Shown here in pieces: positions 49,755-53,677 of a stretch of DNA of 64,000 nt. The notes beneath the pieces are model-generated. The model ran no database searches. It was not told the origin of the DNA and saw nothing but the letters and a program-made list of their open reading frames with translations. The stretch spans positions 2,604,001 to 2,668,000 of the forward strand of contig NZ_AP019309.1 of assembly GCF_003925875.1 (NCBI RefSeq). Direction: 5' to 3'. The first letter of the stretch is position 1, and each line of letters starts with the position of its first letter. The translations under genes and the position numbers were made by a program. The DNA comes from Intestinibaculum porci. GTDB taxonomy: Bacteria > Bacillota_I > Bacilli_A > Erysipelotrichales > Coprobacillaceae.

Positions 49755-49994
49755 GAGTCTCTATATTAATTTGGGGTTTTGGCTAGCTTTAAAAGTTTTT
49801 GGGGTTATGTTCTCAAAGACTTTTTTCTTTTACAGCTGCGGTTTATGTTTTTGGGGTGCCTGAAATTTGATATATTTGAGATATAGAACAGCATAATCAA
49901 ATTGCTCAGTTTATCAAATTCCTAAGAAAGGCAAAAAAAAGATGAAAGCCCATTAAGTTGACCACTTAGCTTTCATCTGTCCAATAAGAACAAT

Positions 49995-50435
49995 ATGAGT
50001 ATAATACAAAGACCTAAAAAAAGCAAACCTTTTCCTCCATCTGAATACATGAAAATAATCGCCAGACTTAATGTCCTAAAGCTTTTAGGAAAGCTATATA
50101 ACGACACCTTCACTGTGTTTGGATTCTACACAAGATATGTGAACATTGACGGAGAACCCGTTGAATACAGAATTATGCGCATCCGCTCTGGAAGAACCGG
50201 CAAGACACACGCTGTGCTCTTTGATTTTATGGTGCCGTATCATCAGATCTCTTCCGAAGATCTGAATGCAGTGATCAGTGGCGATACCGATGATCTTCCT
50301 TACAGCGAAGCATATATCCGATGGCTGACCAATGTCATCAGGCTTCACCGCATCACTGATTACGTTAGCGCATGTATGGCCTTCTGCAGAGGACACTTCA
50401 TTGATAAGTGCGAAACTCTGGTGGTTGCCGTCTGA
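49995..50435 (+). CDS. Element-associated ORF of unknown function
   Basis: 146 aa immediately after the left-end hairpin of the ISL3 element. RIMRIRSGRTGKTHAVLFDFMVPYHQIS (split near residues 60-87) resembles a domain often found with transposases (DUF6431-like), but the zinc-ribbon cysteines usual there are not visible. No strong SD. It precedes the transposase by 148 nt and is on the same strand. It probably assists transposition or is a remnant of a regulatory protein. Confidence 0.65.
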   Translation: MSIIQRPKKSKPFPPSEYMKIIARLNVLKLLGKLYNDTFTVFGFYTRYVNIDGEPVEYRIMRIRSGRTGKTHAVLFDFMVPYHQISSEDLNAVISGDTDDLPYSEAYIRWLTNVIRLHRITDYVSACMAFCRGHFIDKCETLVVAV

Positions 50436-50583
50436 CAAATTTATCTGTTTTTTCTCTTAATTTCTTATTAGAATCATTATAATTCTATGCGTATATTTCA
50501 AAAATAAAACTCTCACACGACATGTTTTGAGTTAGTAAGTATTTCCTTCTATTATGATATTGTAAGCTTACAGGAGGTCATAA

Positions 50584-52137
50584 ATGAAGAAAAGCAACGA
50601 TAACGAAATAGTGTTTGCCGACATAATCCCTGGTGAAAACGGCTTAATAGATGGGGATTTCATTCTCCAGCTTTTCAACCTGCATAAAGAAGACGTTGAG
50701 GATCTTTCATGCATTCATCAGGCAGACGGCATTTACGTTTTTATTACGCTAGCCGCAAGAAAGCACGAATGTCCGTACTGCACCACGCCCACCAAAAAAA
50801 TCAAAGGCTATCACACCAAGAAGATCACCCATTCGATCTTTCACAACATCAACTGCTATATTGAATACCATGTTAGACGCTATGAATGCACTGCATGCGG
50901 CAAAACATTTAATGAAGACAACCCCTTCTCAGAAGGCCATTCCACAATCAGTGTGCTGACCGTGTATAATGTCCTGACTGCATTGAGAAATCCTAAACTG
51001 AGCTATGAGGATGTCGCCAAAACGTTTAATATTTCTGCCTCTTCGGTAATGATCATATTTGACAGACACGTTCAGATTCCCAGAAAGCCGCTTCCCAAGT
51101 ATATTCTAATCGACGAAGTTCATGCCGTTGACAGCCGCGATTCAAAGTATGCGTGCGTTATCATGGACTTTGTAACGCAGGACATCATCGACATTCTGCC
51201 AACAAGAAGAAAGGAGGATCTTGTCAGATACTTCACTCTTATTCCCCGGGAGGAGCGTGAAAAAGTTGAAATCATCTGCTCTGACTGCTGGAAAACCTAT
51301 CGTGAAATCACCAGGATATGCTTTCCTAACGCTATCCATGCCTGCGATGAATTTCACATCATTCAGATTTTTACAGAAATTTACAAAGGATTGCGAGTTG
51401 ATACAATGAAGGCCGCTAAAAATAAGCGTGACAAGCTCGAAAAGTATCTCACTACTCCTAACGGCCGCAAGTATCTCAACCCCGAATGGAATAAATATGA
51501 CATCCAGCATTATCTTCTCAGCAAGTGGAACTGGCTTCTGATGAAGTCTGATGAATATAAAAGCAAAGATAACAAGAAAAAAAAGAAGAAAAAAGGCAAG
51601 CACGCTGACGATGAGGAGCTGCCTATCCTGGATCCTAACAGAGCAAAGAAGATGAACAAAAAGCTGGGCAGATATCTCAATTTCTATGATATCCATAACC
51701 TTCTGATTGAAACCAATCCTGATCTGGCTGAAGCGGAAAACTTCTACGACAAGCTTAGAGCGTTTTACCACACAATCAGCTACAATGAAGCCAGAGAAGC
51801 GCTCAATTCCCTGATTGGAGACCTGAGAATGTCTAACGTTCCTGAAATATGCGGATATGCCAGCACCCTCAGCGAATGGAAAAAATCAATCGTCAATTCG
51901 TTCATCATTATTGACGATACGGGCACTCATATTTCGACCGGGAAAATTGAATCACGGAATAAAATCATCAAAGACGTAAAGAGGGCTTCAAACGGTGTGA
52001 GAAACTTCCAGAGATTCAGAAACCGCTGCCTCTTTGCGATAAACACAGATACGCCAATCTACATGCCTTATACGCCTAAAAGAAGAATTGATGACGATAA
52101 TGATCGCAGCAATAAATCTAAAAAAACAAGCAAATAA
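50584..52137 (+). CDS. ISL3-family transposase
   Basis: 517 aa. An N-terminal zinc finger (CPYCTTPTKKIKGYHTK; YECTACGKTFNED) is followed by an HTH region (SYEDVAKTFNISASSVMIIFDRHV, split) and a DDE domain. Likely acidic residues are the Asp in ILIDEVHAVDSRDSKYACVIMD and in IICSDCWKTYREI, with Glu in TGKIESRNKIIKDVKR. A lysine-rich insert (KKKKKKGKHADDEE) interrupts the C-terminal half. AGGAGG precedes the ATG. Confidence 0.95.
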   Translation: MKKSNDNEIVFADIIPGENGLIDGDFILQLFNLHKEDVEDLSCIHQADGIYVFITLAARKHECPYCTTPTKKIKGYHTKKITHSIFHNINCYIEYHVRRYECTACGKTFNEDNPFSEGHSTISVLTVYNVLTALRNPKLSYEDVAKTFNISASSVMIIFDRHVQIPRKPLPKYILIDEVHAVDSRDSKYACVIMDFVTQDIIDILPTRRKEDLVRYFTLIPREEREKVEIICSDCWKTYREITRICFPNAIHACDEFHIIQIFTEIYKGLRVDTMKAAKNKRDKLEKYLTTPNGRKYLNPEWNKYDIQHYLLSKWNWLLMKSDEYKSKDNKKKKKKKGKHADDEELPILDPNRAKKMNKKLGRYLNFYDIHNLLIETNPDLAEAENFYDKLRAFYHTISYNEAREALNSLIGDLRMSNVPEICGYASTLSEWKKSIVNSFIIIDDTGTHISTGKIESRNKIIKDVKRASNGVRNFQRFRNRCLFAINTDTPIYMPYTPKRRIDDDNDRSNKSKKTSK

Positions 52138-52324
52138 TGATGCTTCATCATGAACCCTGCAGCCGCACTACCGGCACGTATATACTCCGCGGCATTAGCG
52201 ATCATGTCAACGCATCGTCTCTGCAATGAGAATCATTTTTAAAGCCGTGCCGGCACTTATATCATCAACATTAAACATTGACAACTGAATAACGCATATA
52301 CATCAGAGATGCATCATTAATTAC

Positions 52325-52411
52325 TAAGCCACTGGATAATGCCTGGGTATGGCTTATAAGCTTTCATTACTCCTCATTTGGCAGTCCAGTGGCTGCAAAT
52401 GAGGATTTTTT
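52325..52411 (+). promoter_or_regulatory. Structured leader with conditional terminator before the passenger gene
   Basis: Hairpin 1 pairs TAAGCCA (52325-52331) with TGGCTTA (52350-52356). Hairpin 2 is an intrinsic terminator: CCTCATTT-GCAG with CTGC-AAATGAGG (52372-52404), then A and six T (52406-52411). Its 8-nt loop TCCAGTGG (52385-52392) is perfectly complementary to CCACTGGA at 52329-52336 in hairpin 1. The SD and ATG follow within 37 nt, leaving no room for a promoter, so expression must read through this terminator. Confidence 0.72.
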
Positions 52412-52447
52412 ACAAGTCAATTCATATACAGGAAAGGAGAATTAACT

Positions 52448-52945
52448 ATGGCAATGAAAGACTATGAAATCAGCTCAGATCCTCTTACAGAGAAGGATGA
52501 TGACTATGATCCGGAAATGTACGAAGACGGCAGCGTAGAAGCGATGGGAGCATACTATACCTATATCGCTAATTCACTGTCCAGAATCAAAACAGCGCTA
52601 AGCGCAACCTCCAGCAGCAAGAAAATAAAGGAACTGATGTCATCGGATGAAAACATTAATATTTATCAGATGCTTATTGATGATCCCCGCCTCATGAAGG
52701 ATATAAGAGAGGCAATGAGCAGTGATATCATTAAGCCTTTTGACGAGGATAACCTGTTAGAATTATACATGAATAAAGTATCAGATTTAATCAGCCAGAT
52801 TGAATACGTATATCCTGAAAGATATATGACTCTTATGCACAAGATACTTCCATACAGCGTAGCATCATATTATGATCAGATGGTTTCCGAAGAAAACGAC
52901 AGGGATTTTGAATATGCCATCCAGGATGATGATGTACAGTTCTAA
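52448..52945 (+). CDS. Acidic passenger protein of the ISL3 element, unknown function
   Basis: 165 aa with an excellent SD (GGAAAGGAG). No recognised domain. The N-terminus is very acidic (TEKDDDYDPEMYEDGS), the middle is helical (YYTYIANSLSRIKTAL; LLELYMNKVSDLISQI) and the C-terminus ends in another acidic patch (ENDRDFEY; DDDVQF). No signal or membrane helix. It lies inside the element, behind the conditional-looking terminator, and has its own terminator at 52993-53021. A regulator of transposition or host factor is possible; nothing proves it. Confidence 0.75.
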   Translation: MAMKDYEISSDPLTEKDDDYDPEMYEDGSVEAMGAYYTYIANSLSRIKTALSATSSSKKIKELMSSDENINIYQMLIDDPRLMKDIREAMSSDIIKPFDEDNLLELYMNKVSDLISQIEYVYPERYMTLMHKILPYSVASYYDQMVSEENDRDFEYAIQDDDVQF

Positions 52946-52992
52946 AAATGTGCATAACTGTATCGCTTTGAATGCAGTGAAAACAGCATAAT

Positions 52993-53021
52993 AAGAAGGA
53001 GACTCGTTATTTCCTTCTTTT
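52993..53021 (+). terminator. Terminator of the passenger gene
   Basis: AAGAAGGA/TCCTTCTT stem with an 11-nt loop and short T-run, 48 nt after the stop codon. Confidence 0.7.
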
Positions 53022-53104
53022 AATATTTCAATTAGCAAGCATGACTGAGCTGTATTTTGGATTTAAACAAACATACTGAAAATATATAGACATAACAAAT
53101 AAAA

Positions 53105-53131
53105 GAAGATGTATATTGTTTATACATCTTC
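53105..53131. repeat. 11-bp perfect hairpin near the ISL3 right end
   Basis: GAAGATGTATA and TATACATCTTC around a 5-nt loop, about 90 bp inside the right end; the rest of 53022-53221 is AT-rich and holds an ATGGGGT/ACCCCAT pair near 53152-53204. Confidence 0.7.
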
Positions 53132-53221
53132 CTAAAGGTCTCCAAGAGATTATGGGGTCTTATCAATTTAACTTAATAAATTTGGTTAGTTATGACTTAC
53201 CCCATCAATTTCCTGAGAGCC

Positions 53222-53255: not shown

Positions 53256-53332
53256 TGGTCGGGAAGACAGGATTTGAACCTGCGACCCCCTGGTCCCAAA
53301 CCAGGTGCACTACCAAGCTGTGCTACTTCCCG
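53256..53332 (-). tRNA. tRNA-Pro(TGG)
   Basis: 77 nt with encoded CCA. Acceptor stem CGGGAAG/CTTCCCG, anticodon loop TTTGGGA (TGG), T-loop TTCAAAT. Last gene of the five-tRNA minus-strand operon. Confidence 0.95.
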
Positions 53333-53334
53333 AC

Positions 53335-53427
53335 TGGCGCAGCTTGAGGGATTCGAACCCCCGCGGGACTTGCATCCCCTGTCGGTTTTCAAGACCGATC
53401 CCTTCAGCCGGACTTGGGTAAAGCTGC
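53335..53427 (-). tRNA. tRNA-Ser(TGA)
   Basis: 93 nt with a long variable arm, encoded CCA, acceptor GCAGCTT/AAGCTGC, anticodon loop CTTGAAA (TGA). Confidence 0.95.
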
Positions 53428-53441
53428 GCGTAATATTGAAA

Positions 53442-53517
53442 TGGTGGTCTCAGCCGGAATCGAACCAGCGACACAAGGATTTTCAGTCCTTTGCTCTACC
53501 TACTGAGCTATGAGACC
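53442..53517 (-). tRNA. tRNA-Phe(GAA)
   Basis: 76 nt, encoded CCA, acceptor GGTCTCA/TGAGACC, anticodon loop CTGAAAA (GAA), T-loop TTCGATT. Confidence 0.95.
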
Positions 53518-53519
53518 AA

Positions 53520-53597
53520 TGGCGGTCTGAACGGGGCTCGAACCCGCGACCTCCGCCGTGACAGGGCGGCATTCTAAACCAACTGAACTACCAGACC
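53520..53597 (-). tRNA. tRNA-Asp(GTC)
   Basis: 78 nt, encoded CCA, acceptor GGTCTGG with one G-T pair, anticodon loop CTGTCAC (GTC), T-loop TTCGAGC. Confidence 0.95.
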
Positions 53598-53601
53598 ATT
53601 G

Positions 53602-53677
53602 TGGTGACGGATACGGGATTCGAACCCGTGAATGCATGCGTGAAAGGCATGTGAGTTAACCGTTTCTCCAATCCGCC
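53602..53677 (-). tRNA. tRNA-Glu(TTC)
   Basis: 76 nt, encoded CCA, acceptor GGCGGAT/ATCCGTC, anticodon loop CTTTCAC (TTC), T-loop TTCGAAT. First gene of the tRNA operon. Confidence 0.95.

Follow-up and report, generated by a model that had tools for sequence, protein, structure and literature searches.

A predicted transcription terminator with a plausible antiterminator ahead of the passenger gene of an ISL3-family element

Introduction

Insertion sequences of several families, ISL3 among those named, are known to carry intrinsic terminators termed 'mobile attenuators', which are found 5′ of host genes, or of a transposase or another IS-related gene (Naville and Gautheret 2010, PMC2965389). 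Passenger genes of mobile elements can likewise be under attenuation, as with mef(E)/mel, in which an intrinsic terminator precedes the passenger gene and an anti-attenuator fold competes with that terminator, and for which a leader peptide and an inducer are known and the promoter has been mapped (PMC4335068). The first-pass annotation of the DNA described here had considered a kissing-loop or antiterminator switch inside a transposon unusual, which is overstated given these two precedents.

Here we describe the region between the transposase and the passenger gene of an ISL3-family element located in the window (i.e., the whole 64-kb stretch of DNA analyzed). Judged from its anatomy and predicted folds, this locus has about an even chance of being a transposon-borne transcription attenuator, consisting of a terminator with a plausible antiterminator. 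In common with mobile attenuators, it has an IS-borne intrinsic terminator lying directly 5′ of a gene (36 nt from the ATG, within the element) and conserved among copies, with one base difference across the three. Unlike mobile attenuators, the terminator lies between the transposase and the passenger inside the element, and its sequence allows a specific antiterminator to be proposed. With mef(E)/mel the locus shares the placement of the passenger gene after an intrinsic terminator and the presence of a competing fold; here, both are known from sequence and prediction. If the antiterminator works, the arrangement joins a known kind of attenuator; otherwise, it is an ordinary terminator.

The ISL3 element and its genomic copies

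The element (Table 1) displays an ISL3 transposase, terminal inverted repeats, and an 8-bp target duplication, and its gene order is DUF6431 gene, transposase, leader with terminator, and passenger gene. The genome (3.2 Mb, one contig) holds three copies that are about 99% identical, one of them cut short on the left, near 50048, and a second diverging on the right, near 53015. All three retain the leader and passenger. Both arms of the pairing discussed below are identical in each copy, and the region 52300–52447 varies at a single base, position 52348 in the hairpin loop, which is T in the window copy and A in the other two. Given that the copies are about 99% identical, the preservation of both arms says little.

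Table 1. Coordinates of the ISL3-family element, its genes, and the parts of its leader.
Feature	Coordinates	Strand	Basis or remark
Complete ISL3-family element, 3467 bp; terminal inverted repeats GAGTCTCTATATTAATTTGGGG / GGCTCTCAGGAAATTGATGGGG; flanking 8-bp target duplication AAAAAAAG	49755–53221	+	Element ends and copy comparison
DUF6431 protein gene, 5′ of transposase	49995–50435	+	Related elements with ORF in the same place
ISL3 transposase gene (PF01610, NF033550)	50584–52137	+	Family match
Segment able to pair with 52333–52355 in longer transcripts (third competing helix)	52242–52264	+	Prediction only
Hairpin 1 (UAAGCCA...UGGCUUA), candidate anti-antiterminator	52325–52356	+	Predicted, −8.3 kcal/mol
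Antiterminator 5′ strand: AGCCACTGGAT plus inner block around GCC	52327–52344	+	Predicted
Intrinsic terminator, predicted stem −19.8 kcal/mol	52371–52411	+	Sequence and folding
Antiterminator 3′ strand GGCAGTCCAGTGGCT, within terminator hairpin	52380–52394	+	Predicted
Passenger ribosome-binding site GGAAAGGAG	52431–52439	+	Sequence
Passenger gene, 165 aa, acidic	52448–52945	+	No family, no convincing homologue found

Related ISL3 elements, with transposase identities of at most about 46%, mostly comprise a DUF6431-like ORF and a transposase, and neither such a passenger nor this leader was found in them. The same architecture was sought in 27 related ISL3 elements, and no comparable 10-nt complementary run was present; one element (L054) has a 9-nt run but was set aside, as the hairpin involved is weak and A/T-rich.

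We further searched with the DNA, the passenger protein, the transposase, an 8+8-nt pattern, and a covariance model (R1). No diverged relative of the leader or passenger was found in 148–344 genomes per search, genome contigs, viral contigs, plasmids, or phages, collections that may omit close relatives; the leader and passenger searches recovered only the element's own three copies. A weak covariance-model match in one of 294 genomes (G069; E 0.015) fell in protein-coding-like sequence, while the passenger had two weak matches, both in same-class genomes, at 25–26% identity and with an in-frame TGA; all were taken as chance.

Anatomy of the terminator and its complementarity to the upstream hairpin

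The terminator hairpin (52371–52405) has a 15-bp stem, formed by 52371–52380 with 52396–52405 and 52382–52386 with 52391–52395, closed by a loop at 52387–52390 and followed directly by a T6 tract (52406–52411). A good intrinsic terminator is present on the + strand only, and its distance from the passenger ATG, previously noted as 36 nt, is correct.

The initial observation at this locus was that eight terminator-loop bases are complementary to the preceding hairpin. This is right but understated. While CCACTGGA (52329–52336) and TCCAGTGG (52385–52392) are exact reverse complements, the Watson–Crick run extends to 10 contiguous pairs (52327–52336 with 52385–52394; AGCCACTGGA/TCCAGTGGCT), continues with a U–G pair (52337–52384), and, after a 2-nt bulge, ends in an inner 4-bp block. 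The whole predicted helix of 11+4 bp is incompatible with the terminator hairpin, and the antiterminator and terminator folds are mutually exclusive because the 3′ strand of the former sits in the hairpin of the latter.

Competing folds and a possible mechanism

The two mutually exclusive folds are of comparable predicted stability, at −28.3 kcal/mol for the antiterminator (52325–52395) versus −29.5 kcal/mol for hairpin 1 plus the terminator (52325–52411). Equilibrium folding by RNA length gave an antiterminator probability of about 1.0 for 3′ ends at 52392–52400, with the terminator dominant or level from 3′ ends at 52404–52405 onward. The predicted barrier for the opening of hairpin 1 to the antiterminator is about 11.5 kcal/mol (an upper bound), and the winning fold would therefore depend on timing.

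Under the proposed mechanism, a polymerase leaving the transposase gene, or starting intergenically, would meet the terminator, and the passenger gene would receive only those transcripts that pass it. As long as the nascent 3′ end lay at ~52392–52403, the 5′ arm of hairpin 1 could form the antiterminator with the inner portion of the terminator hairpin and block termination; were hairpin 1 (or the 52242–52264 helix) to retain the antiterminator strand, the terminator would be completed. The level of read-through would then be the outcome of this fold competition and, in the simplest form, would be fixed. We infer that transcripts end at this site and that the antiterminator, formed in vivo, determines how much read-through takes place. 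In favor of the attenuator are the sequence anatomy, the predicted exclusive helices, the lack of a strong promoter after the terminator, and the identity of the arms in the three copies.

The sole natural difference in the leader may affect this balance. Changing T to A at 52348 raised the predicted antiterminator probability (equilibrium values for bare RNA) from 0.21 to 0.58 in transcripts starting at 52325, and from 0.00 to 0.56 in those starting at 52138. For the window copy (T at 52348), transcripts begun at 52138 or 52240 have the terminated state as their predicted end point, and less read-through would be expected than in the two A-bearing copies. The base at 52348 is also predicted to weaken the third helix (52242–52264 with 52333–52355) in two of the three copies. 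A model in which longer transcripts favor read-through via this helix was dropped, as findpath barriers support no direction, and the weaker helix in two copies also disfavors it.

If the antiterminator works, the ISL3 element would meter the dose of its passenger through a built-in attenuator; a transposon could in this simple way hold a gene and avoid over-expressing it. The three genomic copies provide a natural test, given that the predicted balance changes with a single base. Should the antiterminator fail to work, the site is an ordinary terminator and illustrates how exact complementarity can mislead.

Expression of the passenger gene

The passenger was previously proposed to be expressed by read-through of the terminator, and this appears to be so. 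We scanned for promoter-like pairs scoring at least 9/12 and found none between the terminator and the passenger ATG, and for this reason read-through is the likely route to the passenger, the ribosome-binding site of which is rated strong. The only site reaching this score in the transposase–passenger intergenic region is TTTAAA-16-TATCAT (52238–52265), and sites across the wider region were no more numerous than in shuffled sequence. The transcripts that read through would probably come from the transposase or from a start near 52272.

Within 52166–52263, the motif CCGGCAC-TATAT is present twice (at about 52170 and 52250). The spacer of the sole promoter-like site holds a palindrome, GTGCCGGCAC, that includes the second occurrence; this is a possible operator.

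Chance complementarity at a plain terminator

The main alternative is that the hairpin simply ends the transposase unit as a plain terminator at its 3′ end, that the complementarity arose by chance, and that the passenger has either a constant leaky expression or almost none. We consider this a real possibility, if a somewhat doubtful one. To gauge it, we applied one rule to 464 kb of the genome, which gave 651 terminator-like hairpins (181 of them strong), and measured the exact match of each apical region to the 70 nt upstream. A 10-nt run was seen only at this locus, with next-best runs of 9 nt among all 651 and 7 nt among the strong ones. When the upstream 60 nt were shuffled, 2 of 3000 sequences had such a run and 13 of 3000 folded with equal stability. 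The complementarity is thus unusual, which is suggestive, but these run statistics are not decisive because the locus was picked after reading 64 kb. The near-equal energies of the two folds also speak against a plain terminator.

Other measures favor it. By the expected number of pairs with upstream RNA before completion of the terminator, the locus ranks only sixth among the 181 strong terminators, and about 3% of the others have as much alternative upstream pairing. The folding stability of the whole leader is at the level of shuffled sequence (z about −1), and, as noted above, the longer transcripts of the window copy are predicted to end terminated.

Sensing, loop–loop, and leader-peptide alternatives

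The attenuator could instead be a dedicated riboregulator, with hairpin 1 stabilized as an anti-antiterminator by a bound ligand, tRNA, or protein and the passenger turned off, in the manner of a PyrR-type attenuator or of a riboswitch from a new class. The three-part architecture and balanced energies would suit such a device, and PyrR-type attenuators (RF00515) show the same order of anti-antiterminator, antiterminator, and terminator. The sequence CAGUCC-AGU-GGCUG bears a partial resemblance to the PyrR-binding loop. This resemblance, however, sits in the terminator here and not in the upstream hairpin; the PyrR model scored 18 bits against a required 54, and no PyrR site was found in the genome. 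Searching the whole window against Rfam at gathering thresholds returned nothing but tRNAs, which agrees with the earlier impression that the leader belongs to no recognized riboswitch class. Sub-threshold matches were weak; a preQ1 fragment, among the best of the cis-regulatory ones, was rejected. Further, the small hairpin 1 gives no indication of an aptamer core, and no homologues were found that would show conservation. A dedicated riboregulator is therefore unlikely. The suggestion of a possible new riboregulator draws no support from the global folding of the leader, which is no better than that of shuffled sequence, or from its three near-identical copies, with no diverged relative found. 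The specific proposal of a new class of sensing riboregulator, with hairpin 1 of the leader detecting a ligand or element protein and switching the passenger (perhaps a transposition regulator), appears quite unlikely.

The first-pass annotation had envisaged either a kissing-loop or an antiterminator switch. Of these, the antiterminator is well formed on paper, while the kissing interaction, in which hairpin 1 contacts the terminator loop and alters termination with both hairpins still folded, is very improbable. It draws on the exact 8-nt complementarity, the bases and coordinates of which are correct; however, not all eight partners lie in the loop of hairpin 1, as C329, C330, and A331 belong to its outer stem. 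Nor does the terminator present an open eight-base loop, as had been assumed, since the predicted fold closes U385–G392 and C386–G391 to leave a CAGU tetraloop. A full 8-bp kiss would thus require opening both stems, and the nested 11+4-bp antiterminator is far more favorable.

Finally, control of read-through by translation of a small upstream ORF, as in the leader-peptide attenuators of other mobile elements, is the least credible reading and scarcely to be expected: although an ATG overlaps the transposase stop (52137), 30-aa and 20-aa ORFs overlap downstream, and a 3-codon ORF (ATGCATCATTAA) at 52309 has its stop ending 6 nt before the antiterminator strand, no candidate ORF has a clear Shine–Dalgarno sequence and ORFs this short are common by chance.

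Additional features of the element and its surroundings

The two longer ORFs lie in the stretch 52137–52288 between the transposase and hairpin 1; the 30-aa ORF begins at the ATG overlapping the transposase stop and is overlapped by the 20-aa ORF in an ATGA arrangement, with neither preceded by a Shine–Dalgarno sequence. A second terminator-like hairpin is located 3′ of the passenger gene (52993–53019), and one copy of the element (L005) has an 11-base insertion just 5′ of it. Five minus-strand tRNA genes (53259–53677) start 38 bases past the right end of the element.

Elsewhere in the genome, an insert of ~4 kb interrupts a second ISL3-type transposase gene (L090; G000:C1:753500-759800). This split gene is present in three copies, with similar loci at about 1.37 Mb and 2.40 Mb. 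The insert carries a 210-aa ORF and three overlapping ORFs that, by eye, resemble tyrosine recombinases, and as a whole it resembles Tn554-like or recombinase-in-trio elements.
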